This document shows positions 27,052 to 44,970 of a stretch of 61,668 nucleotides of DNA, one piece after another. Location: NCBI GenBank assembly GCA_018436595.1, contig JAHDLC010000042.1, forward strand, positions 1 to 61,668. Direction: 5' to 3'. The notes below the pieces were generated by a model. The model was not told the origin of the DNA. It made no database searches and saw only the letters and a list, made by a program, of their open reading frames with translations. Both the position numbers and the translations under genes were made by a program. Numbering within the stretch: the first letter of the stretch is position 1; each line of letters starts with the position of its first letter. The stretch comes from Synergistaceae bacterium. Its GTDB lineage: Bacteria; Synergistota; Synergistia; Synergistales; Aminobacteriaceae.

Positions 27052-27190
27052 GCTGAAGAGCATTGTCCGGACTGCTGCCCGGCCGCTGAAAACACTGTTA
27101 CCAGGCGGTTGTACCCTCCTGTCCTTCCCCGGGTGTACCGGGGGAGGGAATTCTCATGTGCCGGCCCGTATTTTCTTTTTCCAAAAAAAC

Positions 27191-27218
27191 TGAGGTTTTT
27201 TCTTCTGCCGGCCGATAC
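27191..27218 (+). promoter_or_regulatory. Sigma-28 (FliA)-like promoter of the flagellin gene
   Basis: TGAGGTTT (27191-27198) resembles the TAAAGTTT box and GCCGATAC (27211-27218) matches seven of eight bases of GCCGATAA. The spacer is 12 bases against the usual 11. The predicted leader is about 80 bases. Confidence 0.7.
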
Positions 27219-27307
27219 CAATATGCAGGTTCTTTCCCGCAGGCTTTTCCTCAGGCCGGGCATGCCCTGCGGATACGCTGTGAATCCTTTCTGGGGGGTG
27301 CCCGGAA

Positions 27308-30300
27308 GTGCGGATCTCCACGAACCTTATGTCACTGGCCTCTTTTACGGCCCTGTCGGACGTCAGTAACCGCCTGTCGAAGGTTTCAAAAAAACTGGCT
27401 ACCGGCCTTCGCATCAACAGTGCCTCCGATGACGCTTCAGGCCTGGCCGTCTCGCAGAAGATGCGCGCCCAGATACGGGGATTGGACCGGTCGGCCAAGA
27501 ATGCCCAGGACGGCATATCCCTCCTTCAGACCGCGGAGGGAGGGATACAGGAGATAACTTCCCTTCTGCAGCGGATGAGAGAGCTGTCCGTCCAGGGGGC
27601 AAACGATGTTCTCACCAGTGAGGACAGGGGGCATATCCAGGGCGAGATCGACGAACTCTCCTCCCAGGTGGACGCCATAGCGAATCAGACCCAGTTCAAC
27701 AGGAAAAAATTGCTGAACGGCGATATGTCCGCGCTCTGGAGCACGTCCACATCCCATCTTTCCGTAGTGATGCCCGGAAGCGGCAGGGCCAGCGGAACGG
27801 AAGAGGCTGCCGCCGTTCCGTCGGGCAACTTCAGGATTCTCTTCAGCACCCTGGACGAGGGGAGGGAAAACATACAGAAAAGCAACATCCTCACCCTCAG
27901 GAACGGGACGGCGGGGACCGGTGCGGTTATGGACACCGGGGGGGCCGGGCTTGCGGCCATGTCCGCCCTGAACCTGGCCGAAGGGAGCTGGAGGCTGGAA
28001 ACCCGGGAGACCCCTTTCGGGGGAATACGGTACCTGGCCGGGGGGATGAATTCCAGTGCCGCCGCAGTGGGCGGGGCGGTCGGGGTGTCCCCGACGCCGA
28101 ACACCGTCGCGCCGGGAACCTACAACGTGCGCCTTTCGGACGCTGTCCCCATGATGGCCGATTTCGACGATGCCCTGGAGCTTGGGGTTGTGGAGGGAGT
28201 CAACATCAGCAGCAGGGGAACATCCTCCGACTTCGACGCCCGGTTTGCGGTGCGGGCCGACGAGGCGGGGACGCCGTCATCCACCCTTGTCTACCGGAAC
28301 GATATTCCCGGGGGGACAGTGAGCGCCGGCGGGGCGGGTGATGTTTCCCTCACCGTGAACCAGGACAGCGCCGTTAATCTCTTCACCCATTACGCCGTCA
28401 CCGGGACGGACCGCCGGGACCTCATGGCCGGAGACGTGGTTCTCACGGAATCCTACGTGACCTCCCGGGATGCGGTGATGACCGTCAGCCTGGAGTACCA
28501 GGCGGCGGACGACACCGAAATCCATATCAGCTACCGGTCATCGGGGGCAGGAAACGCCGTCACGGCGGTGACCACGTGGCAGGCCGCCTCCGGTGCGTCC
28601 CTTGACATCGGCGGAACGGTGATCTCCGTGGGCGGCATGGGCATGTCCGACATCAGGGATGCCGTCAACGGGGCGGGCATCGCAGGAATTACTGCCTCTG
28701 TGGATTCCCTCGGCGCAAGCCGCCGGATCATCCTGTCGAACAGTTCCGGCGGAGATGTGGCCGTGACTGAAACAGGAGTGGGACCGGACGGGCTGGGGCT
28801 GGCCGGGGTCGTCGCGGACGGGGGGACAGCGGCCGGGACGTTCCGGGAATACCAGCGGTCGGTGACGCTGTCGATGAACGGCTCGGGGCTTGCGGATATC
28901 GCAGCGGGGCTGGACTCTCTCACGGGCCTCTCGGCTTCCGTCACGGGAGGGGGCGGCCTGCCCGCTTCCGTCCAGCTGGCCGGCCACGCCAACTATGATG
29001 TATCGCTGGCCTCCGCCGGGCAGATTGCTGCGGAACTCTCCCTTGACCATGTCTTTGACGGAGGCGGTTCCCATTCGTCCGCCCAGGTCTGGAACGGCCG
29101 CGGGGTGATTGCCGACACCGGCGGAAAAAATCTTGCCGATGCCGCCCTGTCCATTCAGAATGCCGTTGGCGGAATACCGGGGATGGCGGCCTTTGCGGCG
29201 GGAACAACCTCGTCCGGAAACCTCCATGGGCTCAGTTTCAGCAACGCGGTCGGCATCTACGAGATCTCCATGACAGGAAGGGCGATCCGGGAGCTTTCGA
29301 CAGGCGTCTACGGTCCCCCCGATTCCATCACGGTCGGAAGAGGGGGCGGCTTTTCCACGGGGAACAGGGTCTACGTCAATCATGATGTTTCCGTCAGCAC
29401 CTTCAGCGCCGACGCAATGGAGGTGGTCTCAGCCCTCAACTCCGCCGTCGGCGGAGCCCTCGGTCTTGACGGCCTGACGCAGAACAACGGGATCTCGCCC
29501 TTTTCCGCCATCTCAGCAGGTGCTTCCAGGCAGCTCAGGCTTTCGAGCGTCCCTTCATCGGGATACCGCATCTCCGTCACCGGCGGAAGCGGAGGATCCC
29601 TCCAGGAAGTCTGGGGCGGACAGAGAACGGTCAACCGGGGCGGAACGTCCTTCGGACAAGTCCTTGACTACGGGAAGGAGACCGTCTTCGCCGTGACCGG
29701 GATGAACATGGAGGAGGCTTTCGGCGCGATATCCTCGGATGGAAGACTCTCCCTGAACTGGCTGACGGAGCCTTCCCATACCGCCGGGGAGCATGAAGGC
29801 AGGATCGCCTTCACGAATGTCTCGGCGGGAGCGGGGAGAAGAGTGTTTTCCATGGCACAGGCCGGAACGGACCAGGGGAACGTGCTCAACGCGGAACGGA
29901 CGCTTTTCGATTCCACCGGGCCCTTCTGGTCCCCGGAGAACGACGGCGCCGGTACGGTGAACTCCCGGACGCTCCAGGCCCATGACCGTTTCTCGCTGCA
30001 GGTGGCCTGGGACGGCAACAGGGCCTCCGACGCATCCCGGTACCAGGGGTCGGCCTCCGCCTGGCTTTGGGAGGGCGGAACCGCGGGAGGAGGGACGTCG
30101 GGGCAGAATGCCGCCGCCCTGAGCGGAGCTCTCGGGCTTCCCGGCTTCTTCACCGGCTTTGTCGCCGCGGACGGGGATGCTCACGGACCGGACCTCGTCG
30201 CCGGGGATTCCTGGATGACCTACACCACAGCCCGGGTTGCAGGCACTGCGGACAGGCTCGAGCTCTCCCTTTACGACGGACTGTACGCCGACGGCGGGAA

Positions 30301-33145
30301 CAACGGCGGCGTCACGGAGGGTATTGTGTATGCCTTCGACGACGGAGCGCTGGACGGCCGGTTCGTTTCCATCAACCAGCTCGTTCGGACCGCACCCGGA
30401 ATCGGGGGCTCGGAGAATCTTTCCCACCGGCTTGATTTCGGCTCCGTGAGCCAGAATACCACCCTCTCCTACGGAGAGCGGGGGAGTGCCGGGACCTACT
30501 GGGAGAACACGGGAGGCTCCCCGTCATGGTACTCCCACAGCTACTATGCCGGGGATACGACCTGTTTCTTCGGGAGCGGCGGCAGCCCTTCCGATATTGT
30601 CCGAAACGCCGAGGTCTACCGGCAGAACGATATCAACGCGTCCCTTCTGTTCGAATTCGACGGGGCGGGACTGACAGTGCGGGCAAAGGGCTTCGACAGG
30701 AACGGCAGCGAGCTGCCCGAGTCGGCCGACACCTCCCCCTGGAGCTTCCCTCCGGCCGTTTTTTCCCAGCTTGCTTCTGGCGCGGACGTAACCCTCTTCC
30801 AGGGCACTTCCCACGAAATCCGCTGTACGAACCTCCAGGTGGCCACGGACCGGCTTTCGGCAGGGGATAAATTCGTCATCAATGTCGCCGCCGCCGCCAA
30901 GCTGGATGGGCTGAATACGTCGCCTTCACTTTCGGGGGGCTTCCTGTCGGCGGCGAACGTCGCCGTCGAAGGCGACCCCTTCCGGGTGCAGTCCGGAGAA
31001 TGGGGCAGTTCCGCCCAGTACAGGCTCGCGGACGGAGCGGAGAACGGCGCCGATCTCAATCTCCTGGGGTATTTTGTCGATCCCCTGAACGGCAGGAGCG
31101 ACGTTCCCGGGCTCGGCTACTACACCGGGACGCTCATCCTTCAGGCGGAAGCGGCGGGATTCGCTCCGGGAAGCACCGTGGGGGCGCCGGACGGCACTGA
31201 TGCGGGTTCCCGCCGGGTCCGGGCGGAGATCAACTACCAGGGAGACGCCAGACCTTCTGCCGGAGCCCTTGTGACGAGCGCCTTTTTCGGGGACATGGAA
31301 GCCGGGGGAGAGACGGACCTCAAGCGGTACATCGGGGGAGTGGGGTACTCGAACTACCTCTACGGCAGGCGGGGCGACGGGACCTACGGCCCGCTGAATG
31401 AACCGGGTGCCGAGCGGTACAATCCGTACAACGCCTCGCTGGTATTTGACGTGATCAGCGTGGAAAACGGCTCCATGAGGTTCCGGGTCCAGGGGCATGT
31501 CATCGGCAGGGACGGAAGGCAGTGGTATGCGGAAGAGGAACATTTCGGGCTCAACGACGGACAGAACACCGCAAAAAACAGCGCGGCGCTGCCCCCGGTG
31601 ATCCCGTCCGAGGTGGTGAACCCGGTGGTCCTTTTTCGGGACTCGGGGTTCGGGGGGCTGTTTTTCGACGAGTTCACCCTCGGTGACAGTTCCCTGTGGA
31701 ACGAAGGGGACAGGTTTACCCTCTCGCTGGCTGCGAGCGGGTTCACCGACGGAATCAGTGAAGCGGACCAGCTGAGCGACCCTCTCCTGAGCCCCGCCTC
31801 CGATGAACTCGACCTCTTCTCCGACAACAGGGGAACGAACATGCCCCATTCCCTGAGGTTCAACGAAGGCGTCCTGGATAATGCCCGGGTGGATATCGGG
31901 ATCTACCAGGTTGCGAATAACCTCGCCCAGAGGGGGAGCGGCGCTTTTGCGAAGGACCAGGTCATGGACGGAACGCTGTCCCTTTCTTTCAGCGATTTCC
32001 ATCCCTCGTCAGCGGATGTGGAGGAGAACGCCCTGACCTTCGAGTCGGTCTTCGGGAGCGGGATGGACGCGGGGCCTGCCCATTACTACAGCAGGCTGTC
32101 CGATATCGGCCTGTTTTATGACGGGAACGGGCGCTTCCTCCTGGAAGGGGACGGCGGGAGGCTGACCATCCGCCAGGGAGAGAGGGAAACCCATGTCACC
32201 GTCGGGGCCGGCATGGAAGTGGGGCAGATGGCCGAATACATCTCCCGGCAGATCCGGCTTGACCTCCTCGGGCAGGAGGACGGCATCCCCAGGGGAGAGG
32301 GCAGCCGTTTTCCCGAAGGCAGCGGTCCCCGACTGATGGACAGGAGGGACATGAACAGGATTTTCAGGTTCATACAGCATGTGCCGGGGCAAAGCGGCAA
32401 TGATTCGGTGGTTTCAACCCTTCTCGCCCATTCCGTTCTTCCCGGGGAGGAAAGGAAACTCCGTTTTTACGGAAGCGAGGACCTGCTGAAGGCCTTCGGA
32501 TTTGCCTCCATCCAGGAAGGGGAAAAGGCCCGCATGATGATGAGGGTGACTGACGCCCACAGCGGGAAGTCGGTATCGCCCGCAATGGCTGCCGAAGCGG
32601 GGAGCAGGGTGTACGGGCTTCTTCCCGCAGGGGTTGAACTGGATGTGGAAAGCGAAATCGGTCTGGACCGCATCCTGTTCGACCGCCGGAGAGGGACCTT
32701 CGGGGCGCAGCGGCAGGATGTCTTCAGCCATGTCGTTCATATCGCCGACAGTTCGGGCCGGCTGCAGATCGGCGCGAACGAAGGGGAGGACATGATGTTC
32801 CGGCTCGGTGACATGTCCCTGTCCGCCCTCGGGCTGGAATCCCTGGATGTCCGGGACAGGGAGGGCGCAGTCCGGAGCATAGGCAGGATCGACAGGGCCC
32901 TGGACAGGGCGTCCTCCCAGAGAGCGGTCATCGGGGCAAGGATCAGCCGGCTGGAGCATACGGTGAACAACCTCAGCACGTCGTCCCGCAGCCTGACCGC
33001 GGCGGAATCGAGGATACTCGACGCGGACGTCGCCAGGGAAATGATGGAATTCGTAAAACTCGGCATCCTGCTCCAGGCGGGGATGTCGGTCGCCGCACAG
33101 GCAAACCAGCTGCCGCGGCACGTTCTTGAACTCCTGGGCCGGTGA
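27308..33145 (+). CDS. Giant flagellin (1,945 residues)
   Basis: The first 145 residues are a standard flagellin N-terminal D0/D1 domain (ISTNLMSLASFTALSDVSNRL, LATGLRINSASDDASGLAVSQ, MRELSVQGAND, DAIANQTQFNRKKLLNG). The last 130 are the matching C-terminal domain (LQIGANEGED, ISRLEHTVNNLSTSSRSLTAAESRILDADVA, ending VAAQANQLPRHVLELLGR). Ordinary flagellins have about 270-600 residues; here about 1,670 lie between the two ends. That part is Gly/Ser/Ala/Asp-rich, contains an IN-type segment near 420-500 (TVISVGGMGMSDIRDAVNGAG) and repeated beta-rich modules near 1054-1201 and 1351-1482. Only two Cys are seen in it, and no HExxH protease site. The start is a GTG at 27308, nine bases after GGGGGG. 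No other flagellar gene is in the window. Confidence 0.93.
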   Translation: MRISTNLMSLASFTALSDVSNRLSKVSKKLATGLRINSASDDASGLAVSQKMRAQIRGLDRSAKNAQDGISLLQTAEGGIQEITSLLQRMRELSVQGANDVLTSEDRGHIQGEIDELSSQVDAIANQTQFNRKKLLNGDMSALWSTSTSHLSVVMPGSGRASGTEEAAAVPSGNFRILFSTLDEGRENIQKSNILTLRNGTAGTGAVMDTGGAGLAAMSALNLAEGSWRLETRETPFGGIRYLAGGMNSSAAAVGGAVGVSPTPNTVAPGTYNVRLSDAVPMMADFDDALELGVVEGVNISSRGTSSDFDARFAVRADEAGTPSSTLVYRNDIPGGTVSAGGAGDVSLTVNQDSAVNLFTHYAVTGTDRRDLMAGDVVLTESYVTSRDAVMTVSLEYQAADDTEIHISYRSSGAGNAVTAVTTWQAASGASLDIGGTVISVGGMGMSDIRDAVNGAGIAGITASVDSLGASRRIILSNSSGGDVAVTETGVGPDGLGLAGVVADGGTAAGTFREYQRSVTLSMNGSGLADIAAGLDSLTGLSASVTGGGGLPASVQLAGHANYDVSLASAGQIAAELSLDHVFDGGGSHSSAQVWNGRGVIADTGGKNLADAALSIQNAVGGIPGMAAFAAGTTSSGNLHGLSFSNAVGIYEISMTGRAIRELSTGVYGPPDSITVGRGGGFSTGNRVYVNHDVSVSTFSADAMEVVSALNSAVGGALGLDGLTQNNGISPFSAISAGASRQLRLSSVPSSGYRISVTGGSGGSLQEVWGGQRTVNRGGTSFGQVLDYGKETVFAVTGMNMEEAFGAISSDGRLSLNWLTEPSHTAGEHEGRIAFTNVSAGAGRRVFSMAQAGTDQGNVLNAERTLFDSTGPFWSPENDGAGTVNSRTLQAHDRFSLQVAWDGNRASDASRYQGSASAWLWEGGTAGGGTSGQNAAALSGALGLPGFFTGFVAADGDAHGPDLVAGDSWMTYTTARVAGTADRLELSLYDGLYADGGNNGGVTEGIVYAFDDGALDGRFVSINQLVRTAPGIGGSENLSHRLDFGSVSQNTTLSYGERGSAGTYWENTGGSPSWYSHSYYAGDTTCFFGSGGSPSDIVRNAEVYRQNDINASLLFEFDGAGLTVRAKGFDRNGSELPESADTSPWSFPPAVFSQLASGADVTLFQGTSHEIRCTNLQVATDRLSAGDKFVINVAAAAKLDGLNTSPSLSGGFLSAANVAVEGDPFRVQSGEWGSSAQYRLADGAENGADLNLLGYFVDPLNGRSDVPGLGYYTGTLILQAEAAGFAPGSTVGAPDGTDAGSRRVRAEINYQGDARPSAGALVTSAFFGDMEAGGETDLKRYIGGVGYSNYLYGRRGDGTYGPLNEPGAERYNPYNASLVFDVISVENGSMRFRVQGHVIGRDGRQWYAEEEHFGLNDGQNTAKNSAALPPVIPSEVVNPVVLFRDSGFGGLFFDEFTLGDSSLWNEGDRFTLSLAASGFTDGISEADQLSDPLLSPASDELDLFSDNRGTNMPHSLRFNEGVLDNARVDIGIYQVANNLAQRGSGAFAKDQVMDGTLSLSFSDFHPSSADVEENALTFESVFGSGMDAGPAHYYSRLSDIGLFYDGNGRFLLEGDGGRLTIRQGERETHVTVGAGMEVGQMAEYISRQIRLDLLGQEDGIPRGEGSRFPEGSGPRLMDRRDMNRIFRFIQHVPGQSGNDSVVSTLLAHSVLPGEERKLRFYGSEDLLKAFGFASIQEGEKARMMMRVTDAHSGKSVSPAMAAEAGSRVYGLLPAGVELDVESEIGLDRILFDRRRGTFGAQRQDVFSHVVHIADSSGRLQIGANEGEDMMFRLGDMSLSALGLESLDVRDREGAVRSIGRIDRALDRASSQRAVIGARISRLEHTVNNLSTSSRSLTAAESRILDADVAREMMEFVKLGILLQAGMSVAAQANQLPRHVLELLGR

Positions 33146-33155
33146 GGATGAAAGA

Positions 33156-33200
33156 ACGGGGCCCATTTCCCTTCCGGGATGCGGCGGGCCCCGTTTTTTT
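33156..33200 (+). terminator. Rho-independent terminator of the flagellin gene
   Basis: ACGGGGCCC-type arms (33156-33164 with 33186-33194) form a 9-bp stem followed by seven T. Confidence 0.88.
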
Positions 33201-33219
33201 GCTTTCCGGTTCCACCCGC

Positions 33220-38224: not shown

Positions 38225-40111
38225 TTACTTACGGACGAGCAGCAGCAGGGGGAGAAGAAAGAACAGGGACGGAATTCCCGCGACGCTGCACCCGCCACCG
38301 CCGCCTGAACCGTCGTCCGGCACTGCTGTCCCCAGGGACCGTGCCAGGTTCAGCCGTCCGCCGGTAGAGACTTTCCCGCTCAGGGAGGAGAGGCGGTCCA
38401 CCCCGCCCAGGATCCTCGAGCGGATCTGGTCCATGGATTCTCCCGGGAACCGGGACGACACAAGGGCCGCCGCTCCCGTCACGAAGGGGGTCGCCATGGA
38501 GGTTCCCGAGATAGCGATATAGGTATCCGTGGACCAGCCCACTCCCACGTTGTCGATCTGTACCCCTGCGTAGTGGAACAGAATGTCGGAGTGGTCCGTT
38601 TTGAAGAAAAACCTGAAACGGAAGTTCGCCGTCCTGAATTCCGCGGGAACCGGGATCGTAAAGTCCGTCCAGTTGTCCCCACCCCCGGTAAATTCGTGGG
38701 CATTCCTCCATGTGGCGCCTCCGTCCTTGGAAAACTGCAGATAGAGATAGTCGAATCCGCTCTCCAGGTCGCACCGTATCTTCATTCCGAAGAGCACCGG
38801 CTGTCCTGCGGTTCCCGAGAGGTCGATGTCGTTCTGTACGGAGAGATAGGTCCTCTGATTGATGGGGTAGTGCTGGTCCGGTCCGTCGGTCCAGACCTTC
38901 GTGGGCCGGTTGTCCCTCGTGGAGTCGATGATCCTCCAGTGGATTTCCGGGGAAGGGTTTTCCACATGGGTTGTCCATTTTCCGGCGCCCGATTCCATGT
39001 CGTCGAAGAAGATGTCCGATGCCGATGGCTCGTACACCCAGGTGTTCAGGATGGCGGTCCCCGGTGCGGCCAGGTGGACGGACGTTCTTCCGTAGTTCGA
39101 AAAGGAGGAGAGGGCGTCATTCCTGTCGGTGGCCGCCACGGAGATAATGTTCGGCAGGGGATAGGACGAGGGGTAGTGGGGTGTTCCGTCATTGTCTTCT
39201 GCAGAGTTTCCGGCGGCGGCGATGAAAAGGATTCCGGCATTTCCAAGGGCTTCGATGGCGTCCCTGGCGGCATCGCTCGCACCGCCTCCTCCATAGGAGG
39301 CGTTCACGGCCACGATGTCCACCCCTTCCTGTTTCTTCCGCAGGATCCAGTCGTAGGCCTCCAGCTCGTTCTCTGAAGTTCCCGAGCCTTGGTAGTCGAG
39401 CATCTTCACGGCCATCAGCTTCACGTTCCACGCCACACCGGCGGTTCCGATGCCGTTGTTGCCCTTCGCGCCGATGATCCCCGCCACGTGGGTGCCGTGG
39501 CCGTTGTCGTCCTCGGGATCGTCGGTGTCGTCCACGCAGTTCCGGCCGTGGATGCCTCCAGGGCCCGCCCAGAGGTTGTCCCTGAGGTCCTCGTGGAGTG
39601 ATGCGATGCCGGTGTCGATGATGGCCACCACCTTTTCCGGCCGGGCAGAGGTGCGGACTCCCCAGGCTGCGGGAGCGTCGATGTCGGCGCCTGCCCTGCC
39701 GCCGTCCTGCCCCGTGTTATGAAGCCCCCACTGGCTGGAGAAAAGGGGGTCGTTGGGGATCACGGGAGACAGAATGCGCAGGATGTAGTTCGGCGAGACG
39801 CTTTCCACGGCGGGATCCGATGAAAATGTCTCGAGAAGTTCCTCCGTCGATTTTCCCGGAACCCGAAGGAACACGACATTTTTTTCCTGTTCAGCGGACA
39901 GGGCCTCGAACCGTTTCACCGAGACTCCCGCAGTCCGGGCCGCCATGGTCTCCAGACGCCCCGTGCCTTCCCCCCCGCGGTAGGTGACAATGATCTCACC
40001 CTCCACCCATTCCGGCCGGTTCTTTTCTTTTCCTTCGCTTCCTCCGGCGGAAAAAGAGGGGAAAAAAGCAAGAAAAAAGAACAGCAATGCTCCCACTGTG
40101 AATCTTCTCAT
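38225..40111 (-). CDS. Subtilisin-like serine protease (S8) with Synerg-CTERM-type sorting tail
   Basis: 628 residues. A signal peptide (1-23) is followed by an I9-like propeptide (about 35-110, IIVTYRGG to VESVSPNY) and an S8 catalytic domain with D166 (AIIDTG), H205 (NGHGTHVAG), the oxyanion Asn in AAAGNS and S538 (SGTSMATP). Between the Asn block and the Ser, roughly residues 350-530, lies an inserted beta-sandwich (GFDYLYLQFSKDGGATW, NFRFRFFFKTDHSD) like the jelly rolls of M6 or MAM domains. The C terminus has Gly-Ser-Gly5-Cys, a hydrophobic helix and a final basic pair, a sorting signal of the Synerg-CTERM kind. It should be a surface-attached or processed protease that feeds peptides to the cell. 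Confidence 0.92.
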   Translation of the reverse strand: MRRFTVGALLFFFLAFFPSFSAGGSEGKEKNRPEWVEGEIIVTYRGGEGTGRLETMAARTAGVSVKRFEALSAEQEKNVVFLRVPGKSTEELLETFSSDPAVESVSPNYILRILSPVIPNDPLFSSQWGLHNTGQDGGRAGADIDAPAAWGVRTSARPEKVVAIIDTGIASLHEDLRDNLWAGPGGIHGRNCVDDTDDPEDDNGHGTHVAGIIGAKGNNGIGTAGVAWNVKLMAVKMLDYQGSGTSENELEAYDWILRKKQEGVDIVAVNASYGGGGASDAARDAIEALGNAGILFIAAAGNSAEDNDGTPHYPSSYPLPNIISVAATDRNDALSSFSNYGRTSVHLAAPGTAILNTWVYEPSASDIFFDDMESGAGKWTTHVENPSPEIHWRIIDSTRDNRPTKVWTDGPDQHYPINQRTYLSVQNDIDLSGTAGQPVLFGMKIRCDLESGFDYLYLQFSKDGGATWRNAHEFTGGGDNWTDFTIPVPAEFRTANFRFRFFFKTDHSDILFHYAGVQIDNVGVGWSTDTYIAISGTSMATPFVTGAAALVSSRFPGESMDQIRSRILGGVDRLSSLSGKVSTGGRLNLARSLGTAVPDDGSGGGGGCSVAGIPSLFFLLPLLLLVRK

Positions 40112-41456: not shown

Positions 41457-41769
41457 GAAAATGTCCTCCTTGGGAATGTCAGGCTGTACCCCTTCTTTTC
41501 GCTGATATGATACATCACCGCGGAACGGGCCACAACACCCGGCCTTTTCGCCGCGAAATGACGGGTGCGAAGCCTCCTCCGGGAGGGGAACCAGCCAGGA
41601 CCGATTCCGTTCCTCCGGCACGAGACCGGAGAAAATAGCAGCGGACCGGTAAATGTATATATTGCGAAAGATAGGGAAGTGCCGTATGATTCAAAAAAAT
41701 CAACCCCCTTTCTCAGCAAAGAAGAATCACGGTCTGTACCCTATCCGATTATCCAGGAGAGTGAACGAA
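41457..41769. other. Intergenic region, 313 bases, between divergent aminotransferase and glucanase genes
   Basis: It holds the ribosome sites of both genes. The part near 41640-41710 is richer in A/T; a TATATT at 41658-41663 may be the -10 box of the glucanase gene, but I see no matching -35. No RNA gene, repeat or reading frame with a ribosome site is apparent. Confidence 0.4.
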
Positions 41770-44700
41770 ATGCCGAAGAGAACGATGCGTTTTACACCAC
41801 TGGCTGTTCCGGCGGCGATTCTTCTGATTCTGTTGTTCGGAGAGGTCCTGTATGGGGCTCCCGCATGGGTGTCTCCTCCGGGCGGCGGCGACGGCAGCTA
41901 TGCCGTCACGGTGCCCGCGGAGGGGAAGCATTCCGACGCGGATCCCGGAGGAGACACCGGGATCGTTCGGGCGGTACCTCCCGCCGTGGGGCCGAACACC
42001 GATGCCCCCGGTTCGCGGAAGGTTCCCACCGCCGACTGGTGGACCCCCCTGGCGTGGCTCGATCCCGCCGACCTGCCCGACCCTGCGGCCCTTCCCTCCA
42101 TGAGAGGTCTTTCGTGGCAGGTCTTCAGCGAACCCCTGGTTTTCCAGCCCCAGAAGGGCGGACTGGCGGTTTCTCTCAACATTCCCGACAGCCGGAGAGC
42201 GGCCGTCAAAGGAGGCATCCTCACGGCCGGGGAAGGCTTCATGCTCGAGGTTGTGGGTGACGACGCTCACGGAGGAAAGGGAATTTCACCCTATTTCAAC
42301 GCCTTCTTCGACCAGGACATGTACCTCGGCTCCACGGCGGCAGGATGGAACGAAGCCGCGTACACCGGCGTGAAGGTCACAGGGTGGAGCGACTGGTTCG
42401 TCAACTTTTCCCTCACCTCCGCGGCTCCCGCGGAGCGGCTGGACGTGACCGCCGGGGCGGGCTCTCCCTTCCTCCTGGTGAAGAACGGGTCAGGGCGGCC
42501 CCAGGTGACCTTCCGGACATGGAACGTGGGGAAGGTCATTCCCCTCCATGGAATGAGCTTTTCCCTCAACGCCGGGCAGGCGAAAGACCAGAACATATCC
42601 TCCAGTGCGTTTGCAGTGGTCAACAAAGTGCCCTACGGAAAACCCCAGGCCCCCGCGGATGCCAAGGAATACGCCACCTACACCGTCTATGCCGTCTTCG
42701 GTCCCTCCGGGTCAACCTGGCAGCTGAAGGATACCCAGTACACCTCCGAAATTCGGGGGCCCTTCGACTCCTGGCAGGCCTCTCATGGCTACTCCCCGGG
42801 AAACCCTGTGGAACCATCGGCGCCCAACGGTTTCTTCTACACCGCCAACGGGGCGGGGACCAGCGGGGTGTCAGAGCCCGCATGGCCCGCGTCGGCGGGA
42901 GGAACCGTGACGGACGGAACCGTCACCTGGACGGCCAACGCCAAGGAGCTGCGGAACGTCCTGAACACTGCGGAATGTTCGGCGGGAACCTATTATGCCG
43001 TGGCGGTCTTGCCCTATCCTTGGGGCAAGGGAATCTACGACGAGCCGGACGAGCAGAAGGTGAAGGACCTGCTTGCCCATTTCGCGGGGCATGCCTTCGC
43101 CGAAGTCACCGACACCCGGGTAATTCCGGGGTACGCCCCCCAGGCGGACGGTCACGATATGAGCGTGACCTATGCCTGCACCACCGTTTCTGTGGGCACG
43201 GAGTCACCTGCGGCAGGTGGTCCCCTTCGGGCCATGTACCCCCACCAGTACCTGGGCCAGTCCCAGGTGGGCATCCTCAACCAGTCGATGAATCAGGTCT
43301 CCTCCGCTTCATGGCGGACGGGGTGGTACTGGCCGTCTTTGAAGGGCCCTCTGCTGCTGGCCTCCGGGAATTCCTTCGTGAACGTCCTCGAAGTTCCTCC
43401 GTGCCTTCCCGCTCCCATAGACGCCCCTGACCGGCAGAAGGCCGACCGCATGGCTGCGTACCTCCGCCAGGCGCTGGATTCGCGGAATCCGCGGTTTCTC
43501 TCCCAGGGAAGCTATTTCGGCGCCCAGCAGATGTACCGGCTGGCAATGCTCCTCCCGGCAGCGAAAATGATACGGGACACGGCCTCCAGGCCGGCGGAAG
43601 TGGACCAGGCTGCCAGGGAGATGTACACCGCCGTGTCGGAAGCCATGGCCGGCTGGATGAAAGCCACGAAGGACGGCACGACCCTCAAGAACGCGGCGCA
43701 GCACATCTTCTACTACGATTCCCGGTGGGGCGCCCTTCTCCCCACCCCAGAGGACGGCTTTGCGGCGGACAGCCTGCTGAACGACCATCATTTCCATTAC
43801 GGGTACTTCATTAAAACAGCGGCCGAAATCGCCCGGTGGGAAAAGACCCATCCGGACGACCCCGCCAACAGGGGGTGGGCATCCTCCTACGCCCCCATGA
43901 TACGGCTGCTCATCAAGAACATCGCCAACACGAGCCGCGAAGGCCGCGGAGAGGACCCCGACTTCCCCTTCCTCCGCCATTTCAGCCCCTATGCGGGGCA
44001 CTCCTGGGCGAGCGGCTCGTCGAGGGGCAACCAGGGAGGGCAGCAGGAGTCCACACCGGAGGCCATCCAGGCCTGGGCCGCCATTCTTCTCTGGGCGCAG
44101 CTCAACTATCCCGAGAACGGGGAGAACGCCGATCTCGAGCGGTGGGCTGCCTACATGTTCGCCTCCGAGGCGAGAGCGGCGGAACTGTACTGGTTCGGCC
44201 TCACCGACGACGGAACCTTCAGGCCTCACCTGAGTTTCCGGCAGTATTCGGTGAAATCGGACGCCGTTCCTAAGCCCTATGTGCCCTCCATGGTCTCCCA
44301 GGTCAACCAGAACGAAATGACTTACCAGACGGACTTCGGGAATCCCCCGCTGCTGAAGCTCGGAATCCAGGTGCTGCCGTTCACTGGGTCATCCTATTAC
44401 CTTGGTTCCACGCCCGGAAACGCGGACGCCATCGTTTCAGGCTACCTGGACAACGACCTGCCGAAGCTGGCCGACGGAGGCACGTCACCCAGCAACAGGG
44501 ACAAGCTGCTCATGCTCCAGGCCATGACGGCGAGGTACACCGCCGACCCCCGGGCTCTCATCACCCCGGCCGGAGGAGGAGCCTTGCCCCTTGACTCGTG
44601 GAAAATGCAGTGGGAGATCCCCACGCCCACCTTCAGCAACCTGATCCTCCAGGACACCTCCCGGGGCGCTGTATACTGGTGGATCGACACGCTCCTTGCC

Positions 44701-44970
44701 CACGGCGTGCCCCATCACGGGGAAAACGACGCGAATCACACCTCCGCGGCCAGCTTCATGGATGGAAGGGGCGGCAGGGTGTATACGGCCTACAACCCGG
44801 GAGAGTCGCCCCTGCTGGTGACCTTCGCCGACGGAAATACCCTGGAGGTGCCCCCCCTGGCCTACGCTCATGAAACATCGGACGGGGCGGGGGGAGGGTG
44901 CACTGCCGGGACAGTAACGTCCTGGATGCCTCTGTTCCTGCTGCCCCTGCTGCTCCTGCTCCGCAGGTAG
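41770..44970 (+). CDS. Glycoside hydrolase family 81 endo-1,3-beta-glucanase with Synerg-CTERM-type sorting tail
   Basis: 1,066 residues from the ATG at 41770 behind AGGAGAG. A signal peptide (1-29) is followed by a low-complexity lead and the GH81 N-terminal beta-sandwich. The catalytic alpha/alpha barrel covers roughly 560-1030, with the acid candidate D672 in LLNDHHFHYGYF and the base candidates E760 and E764 in QQESTPEAIQAW; GHSWASG precedes them as in the family. Residues about 331-394 form an inserted module (SYSPGNPV-like, ending TVTDGTVTWTA) resembling small wall- or sugar-binding units. The end has GAGGGC, a hydrophobic helix and RR, the same tail as the protease at 38225. It should cut beta-1,3-glucan at the cell surface. 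Confidence 0.88.
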   Translation: MPKRTMRFTPLAVPAAILLILLFGEVLYGAPAWVSPPGGGDGSYAVTVPAEGKHSDADPGGDTGIVRAVPPAVGPNTDAPGSRKVPTADWWTPLAWLDPADLPDPAALPSMRGLSWQVFSEPLVFQPQKGGLAVSLNIPDSRRAAVKGGILTAGEGFMLEVVGDDAHGGKGISPYFNAFFDQDMYLGSTAAGWNEAAYTGVKVTGWSDWFVNFSLTSAAPAERLDVTAGAGSPFLLVKNGSGRPQVTFRTWNVGKVIPLHGMSFSLNAGQAKDQNISSSAFAVVNKVPYGKPQAPADAKEYATYTVYAVFGPSGSTWQLKDTQYTSEIRGPFDSWQASHGYSPGNPVEPSAPNGFFYTANGAGTSGVSEPAWPASAGGTVTDGTVTWTANAKELRNVLNTAECSAGTYYAVAVLPYPWGKGIYDEPDEQKVKDLLAHFAGHAFAEVTDTRVIPGYAPQADGHDMSVTYACTTVSVGTESPAAGGPLRAMYPHQYLGQSQVGILNQSMNQVSSASWRTGWYWPSLKGPLLLASGNSFVNVLEVPPCLPAPIDAPDRQKADRMAAYLRQALDSRNPRFLSQGSYFGAQQMYRLAMLLPAAKMIRDTASRPAEVDQAAREMYTAVSEAMAGWMKATKDGTTLKNAAQHIFYYDSRWGALLPTPEDGFAADSLLNDHHFHYGYFIKTAAEIARWEKTHPDDPANRGWASSYAPMIRLLIKNIANTSREGRGEDPDFPFLRHFSPYAGHSWASGSSRGNQGGQQESTPEAIQAWAAILLWAQLNYPENGENADLERWAAYMFASEARAAELYWFGLTDDGTFRPHLSFRQYSVKSDAVPKPYVPSMVSQVNQNEMTYQTDFGNPPLLKLGIQVLPFTGSSYYLGSTPGNADAIVSGYLDNDLPKLADGGTSPSNRDKLLMLQAMTARYTADPRALITPAGGGALPLDSWKMQWEIPTPTFSNLILQDTSRGAVYWWIDTLLAHGVPHHGENDANHTSAASFMDGRGGRVYTAYNPGESPLLVTFADGNTLEVPPLAYAHETSDGAGGGCTAGTVTSWMPLFLLPLLLLLRR

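Follow-up and report, generated by a model that had tools for sequence, protein, structure and literature searches.

We analysed a 61,668-nucleotide stretch of DNA from a Synergistaceae bacterium (contig JAHDLC010000042.1 of assembly GCA_018436595.1), called the window below. On its plus strand, at 27308-33145, it carries the gene of a giant flagellin, which stands by itself, flanked by a CapA-like gene (PGA_cap) and larC. The gene has a GTG start and 1,945 codons without one internal stop, and its product has a computed mass of 203 kDa and an isoelectric point of 4.8. An earlier reading made from the letters only (the sequence-only reading) had called a giant flagellin of 1,945 residues with both conserved ends intact, and both statements held. 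Pfam Flagellin_N (PF00669) matches residues 3-138 with 133 bits (cut-off 26.6), in an N-terminal D0/D1 part of about residues 1-142 (27308-27733) that includes the RELSVQ segment; Flagellin_C (PF00700) matches residues 1859-1943 with 78 bits (cut-off 23), in a C-terminal D1/D0 part of residues 1859-1945 (32882-33142) that includes ESRILDADVA. By these Pfam matches, the giant has both helical ends of a flagellin. The same scan gave no match between the two domains. The large middle described by the sequence-only reading is real; some 1,720 residues lie between the Pfam ends, where that reading gave about 1,670.

Flagellin_N matches three proteins of the host genome (3.2 Mb in 50 contigs, 100% complete): the giant, a FlgL-like protein of 1,006 residues encoded beside FlgK, and the second, normal flagellin that the earlier reading had proposed to look for (773 residues, 83 kDa, contig C34). 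The latter clusters, on a contig other than that of the giant, with FlgK, FlgL, a Maf-like (MptE-like) gene and nonulosonic acid genes (NeuB, UDP-GlcNAc 2-epimerase and others). Because the Maf-like and nonulosonic acid genes flank the normal flagellin, this arrangement (L033, 1446-11436) suggests that flagellin is glycosylated in this genome. One FliD gene and one FlgL-like gene were found. The FlgL-like hook-associated protein (L033, 12697-15717) is itself very large, and its length is similar in relatives. The other well-assembled carriers of giants that we examined likewise have a flagellin whose open frame spans ~710-915 residues; in the fragmented assemblies G026 and G045, the second flagellin matches were partial only.

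Since Flagellin_N and Flagellin_C also occur in FlgL, and the NCBIfam FlgL model TIGR02550 matches the giant at 110 bits, we considered whether the protein could belong to the hook-associated (FlgL-type) proteins, or be secreted as a structural protein, and not be part of the filament. This seems highly improbable. The match falls short of the model's own cut-off of 127 bits, whereas flagellin models reach up to 228 bits; the genome has its own FlgL-like protein; and the D0/D1 ends of the giant are 58% (N-terminal, 140 residues) and 62% (C-terminal, 99 residues) identical to those of the normal flagellin.

Upstream of the gene, a sigma-28-like promoter, TGAGGTTT-N12-GCCGATAC, is predicted at 27191-27218 (plus strand; GCCGATAC at 27211-27218), ending 89 bp before the start codon. 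It is a consensus match and not a mapped start, and agrees with the FliA consensus at 13 of 16 positions; only two sites this good occur in the window, counting both strands. The normal flagellin gene has a promoter-like site, TAAAGTTT-N12-TCCGATAA, with the same spacing and 15 of 16 positions. A probable ribosome-binding site, GGGGGG (27293-27298), read from the sequence, lies nine bases before the GTG, and the stop codon is followed by what reads as an intrinsic terminator, a strong hairpin (ACGGGGCCC / GGGCCCCG) and then seven T (33156-33200).

Base and outer part of the giant

In a profile comparison, residues 1575-1944 of the giant aligned with residues 429-773 of the normal flagellin at 36% identity. 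This C-side of a common base (32030-32830, from residue 1575 onward) is also found in the Geovibrio thiophilus flagellin (PDB 9au6). On the N-side, the giant up to about residue 231 (27740-28000) corresponds to the normal flagellin up to about residue 229 and again to the Geovibrio protein; beyond D1, this correspondence has a weaker basis: both proteins match 9au6 in sequence, and hhalign gives a secondary alignment of low score. The border on this side is approximate. Because the two bases align on both sides, about 1,345 residues of the giant (~231-1575; 27998-32032), the outer part, stand in place of about 200 residues of the normal flagellin.

The outer part contains two separate sets of internal repeats. 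They emerged when segments of the family profile were compared with each other by hhalign, the best pairs reaching 95-97% probability; as an internal control, N-half and C-half segments did not match one another among the best 30 pairs. The first set, of Flagellin_IN type (~residues 437-820; 28616-29767), is also supported by a FliD fold match and by Pfam, Flagellin_IN being matched in 2 of 8 members of the giant family (best E 2.5e-4). In the second set (~residues 1045-1562; 30440-31993), the units lie ~270 residues apart and predicted strands agree with the self-comparison.

The structure prediction of the central part proposed by the sequence-only reading was informative for one stretch. 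Two AlphaFold models of 1,200 residues each had mean predicted local distance difference test (pLDDT) scores of 48 and 44; residues ~390-530 alone were well predicted, with pLDDT ~85-91 over much of their length, and most of the rest was of low confidence. Within that stretch, modelled residues 424-501 fit the D2/D3 domains of Escherichia coli FliD (Z 7.5, 2.1 Å over 76 residues, 22% identity), although a fold match with Z below 8 may reflect merely a common arrangement. Fold matches elsewhere were left unused because the models are poor there, and the Foldseek matches of the C-half model (viral chemokine-binding protein, complement C3, fluorescent proteins) were dismissed for their low probability. 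Long open reading frames (ORFs) antisense to giant genes (30926-32002 on the minus strand of the window; a 2,240-residue frame in L057/L095) were taken as artefacts of GC-rich coding sequence. The best explanation of this anatomy would be that the outer part grew by internal domain duplication upon the base of a normal Synergistota-type flagellin.

Relatives and selection

G013, G038, G045 and G053 carry relatives of matching length (1,936-1,946 residues), and G065, G112 and G123 carry further ones; same-length relatives span four families of the order Synergistales. The middles of the first four are 51-59% identical to that of the window protein over ~1,700 residues, and 54-82% among themselves. 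Type B giants, found in G001, G011 and G026, have 1,803-1,840 residues and are ~30% identical over the full middle to the window giant, which belongs to type A (~31% in the middle for that of G001). Other giants are longer (2,042-2,137 residues; G155 and G150) or shorter (1,577-1,713 residues). With a family profile at E <= 1e-20, matches were found in 26 of 185 Synergistota genomes and 14 of 62 genera. The named relatives are Synergistales/Synergistaceae records, mostly metagenome-assembled genomes (MAGs), including MAGs of Fretibacterium and Dethiosulfovibrio. One Synergistaceae MAG, Roe453_bin29 (G150; L097/L054, L099/L061), has two different giants, of 2,137 and 1,644 residues. Giant relatives were also looked for in viral contigs and in plasmids, where none was found.

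The ratio of nonsynonymous to synonymous substitution rates (Ka/Ks) over the gene was 0.08-0.22 in four pairs of relatives (among G045, G053 and G112, and between G026 and G011); these values describe the relatives, as the window gene has no close enough partner. By segment, the ratio was mostly highest in residues 500-900 and never exceeded 0.32, implying that the outer part, too, is maintained. Judged by these ratios, the relatives are under purifying selection, and the N-half repeat region is the most variable stretch of the outer part. Given same-length relatives in other genera and families, their conserved middles and these ratios, the giant middle cannot be put down to chance. An isolated gene with a GTG start and a patchy distribution might instead be silent or decaying, but intact frames in 17 family members, the low Ka/Ks of the relatives and the presence of a promoter-like site and a terminator make this very unlikely.

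An ectodomain that is conserved and in which many aromatic and acidic residues are invariant could also work at the filament surface as an enzyme or as a specific adhesin, and flagellinolysins show that enzymes can occupy this place (PMC7643111). Yet neither Pfam nor NCBIfam identified an enzyme domain, peptidases included, the HExxH motif occurs in 0 of 17 giants, and the middle has no PDB sequence relative; these points leave room for an adhesin. Taken as a whole, the proposal appears doubtful to us.

Empty sites and gene trees

When the neighbours of the window gene were searched for at the DNA level in two congeners, they were found to adjoin inside contigs, 94 bp apart in G001 and ~68 bp in G002, with no giant between them. 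A stretch of 6,168 bp (27052-33219) is thus missing from the same place in both, and the giant is the only gene that it holds. G001 has a giant at a different site (its contig C21), and that site is closed in the window's genome (G000, ~40 bp) and in G002 (~62 bp). Within genus g30 the giants share one site, and the neighbours differ between genera (adenylosuccinate synthetase, Obg, YajC, CstA, ComEC-like and others). Another flagellin gene is close to the giant at two loci from different genomes, L040 (where a Maf-like gene is also present) and L062; at the second of these (L062, 1056-8843, Synergistales bacterium MS502-76), a giant of 1,713 residues is in tandem with a flagellin of 875.

In an RpoB tree, G000 and G001 are sisters (support 85/85; 97.8% identity) and G002 comes next. 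The giant tree conflicts with it, placing G000 in type A among other families and G001 in type B. Within type A, G013 pairs with G123 of another family (100/100). Approximately unbiased (AU) tests rejected placing the G000 giant together with the one from G013, a genome of the same family (p 1e-13), and also the holding together of the type A and B giants of five genomes of family f1 (G000, G013, G001, G026 and G011; p 6e-46). In a tree of the N-terminal D0/D1 part, types A and B form one group (95/87), apart from all normal flagellins, and the shorter giants (1,577-1,713 residues) fall among the normal ones.

These data might be explained by two old paralogues, types A and B, that were passed down vertically from an ancestor within the order, lost many times and never transferred. 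Type B in G001 and the sister genus g8 does track RpoB, the base composition is native, and the site is constant within g30. Against such a history stand the differing sites between genera, the clean empty sites of the congeners, the cross-family pair G013-G123 and the AU rejection of G000 with G013, and we regard it as unlikely. Horizontal transfer is the simplest reading of the locus and tree data. A transposon or integrative element was considered as the vehicle and rejected: the insert is a single gene, without integrase, transposase or matching ends, and without relatives in viral contigs or plasmids.

Our preferred reading, held with moderate confidence, is that the gene encodes a selected, working accessory giant flagellin, which would have passed between Synergistota as a single gene and would add to or replace the normal subunit. 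Within it we infer the direction of change (gain and not loss), the use of the promoter, the assembly and the function. Several observations weigh against it. The base composition of the giant gene equals that of the host genome (GC 63.5%, and 0.78 at third codon positions), with no sign of recent foreign origin, implying that the donor in any transfer had a similar genome or that the event is not a recent one. Neither an integrase nor transposon ends nor a target duplication was seen at the giant site, and old paralogues with repeated loss could also yield the pattern. Furthermore, sigma-28-like matches are weak upstream of several relatives, and the low confidence of most of both structure models bears on the outer part.

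The lone gene at a site that is empty in the closest relatives, together with an outer part common to other families, suggests an optional, mobile flagellar coat. Horizontal transfer would be the most likely route for this self-contained unit of promoter, gene and terminator; its recombination into intergenic sites would leave close species with different giants at different sites, or with none.

Elsewhere in the window, an ORF of 1,105 residues (41653-44970, plus strand) has a glycosyl hydrolase family 81 C-terminal domain (endo-beta-1,3-glucanase family), and a 628-residue subtilase (Peptidase_S8; 38225-40111, minus strand) shows a weak Reelin-subrepeat match.

Filament assembly and comparison with known systems

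Because the D0/D1 ends are intact and the genes for the hook-filament junction and the cap are present in one set only, established flagellar biology predicts that the giant should be exported and built into the same flagellum as the normal flagellin. Its ends would polymerise there with or without normal flagellin, on the one hook and cap system that the cell has, and each giant subunit would put an acidic, multi-domain outer part of 138 kDa on the filament surface. The sequence-only reading had expected a much thicker filament. The intact filament-forming ends bear out its call of a giant flagellin, but the thickness follows only if the giant polymerises alone. In that case, a simple packing estimate scaled from Salmonella (24 nm, 51.6 kDa) puts a pure giant filament at ~48 nm and a normal one at ~30 nm. 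Applied to Bermanella, this scaling predicts 37 nm; the measured width is at least 30 nm (PMC6248924).

A thick homopolymeric filament with a mechanical role only, as proposed for Bermanella and Oleibacter, would accord with this estimate. Filaments of at least 30 nm are on record for two species with flagellins above 1,000 residues, and in B. marisrubri the filament protein was confirmed to be the giant (PMC6248924). However, the coexistence of a normal flagellin with one FliD and one FlgL-like gene makes a mixed or segmented filament at least as likely, on this gene inventory, as a pure giant one, and the outer sequence is conserved across families beyond what mere bulk would need; a purely mechanical homopolymer is therefore, in our judgement, improbable. 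Several species that make two flagellins build both into the filament; the minor one sits mainly near the base, and its loss alters motility, especially in viscous media (PMC8306008). This precedent, together with the filament-width scaling, leads us to favour an accessory coat. Its most likely use would be as a conditional outer layer that alters filament thickness and contacts with surfaces, particles or hosts; that surface or particle contact is the actual benefit is a guess.

More generally, we propose tentatively that the giant flagellins of Synergistota are a horizontally exchanged single-gene surface module, with types A and B of 1,800-2,100 residues, very different in their outer parts, at various intergenic sites and the normal flagellin kept. 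If so, the flagellar coat would be an exchangeable accessory trait, borne here by an unusually large filament subunit. The gene also raises the question how a 203-kDa subunit passes the flagellar export channel and packs beside one of 83 kDa.

The outer domains of flagellins are usually regarded as hypervariable. Here, in contrast, the outer part keeps 51-59% identity across families and a near-constant length, yet it is present in some genomes only, at sites that differ between genera. Congener pairs with and without the gene, or with two very different giants, thus offer a natural test of what an outer domain is for.

Among known structures, the Geovibrio thiophilus flagellin (9au6, 793 residues) is homologous to residues 3-308 and 1695-1944 of the giant (E 1.9e-90) and matches the normal flagellin end to end, but lacks the ~1,345-residue outer part; since it covers the ends and part of the base of the one and the whole of the other, the base of the giant is a known flagellin architecture. 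Residues 424-501 resemble FliD D2/D3; domains of this Flagellin_IN type, to which outer domains of FliC also belong, are here repeated in tandem within one flagellin. As in flagellinolysin, a large part is added between flagellin ends; the NCBIfam flagellinolysin model, however, reaches only 64 bits on the giant (cut-off 205), its best stretch lying in the flagellin C-end. Unlike the normal flagellin of the same genome, the giant has ~1,345 outer residues instead of ~200 and a locus apart from the FlgK, FlgL, Maf-like and nonulosonic acid genes.

Giant flagellins of more than 1,000 residues have been reported from many phyla, including the Synergistetes (Aminomonas paucivorans); they grow by internal duplication, and those of two marine bacteria form thick filaments (Thomson et al. 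2018, PMC6248924). By its sequence, the window gene is a giant flagellin of this kind: its product exceeds 1,000 residues, has a large insertion in its outer region and contains internally duplicated domains. It differs in its size (1,945 residues and 203 kDa, against the 120-kDa protein studied there), in coexisting with a normal flagellin, and in having an isolated single-gene locus, empty sites in congeners and a middle conserved across families. As far as the literature searched shows, three things are new: a conserved, order-wide family of giants, the presence of a normal flagellin alongside the giant, and single-gene empty sites with two very different giants in sister species.
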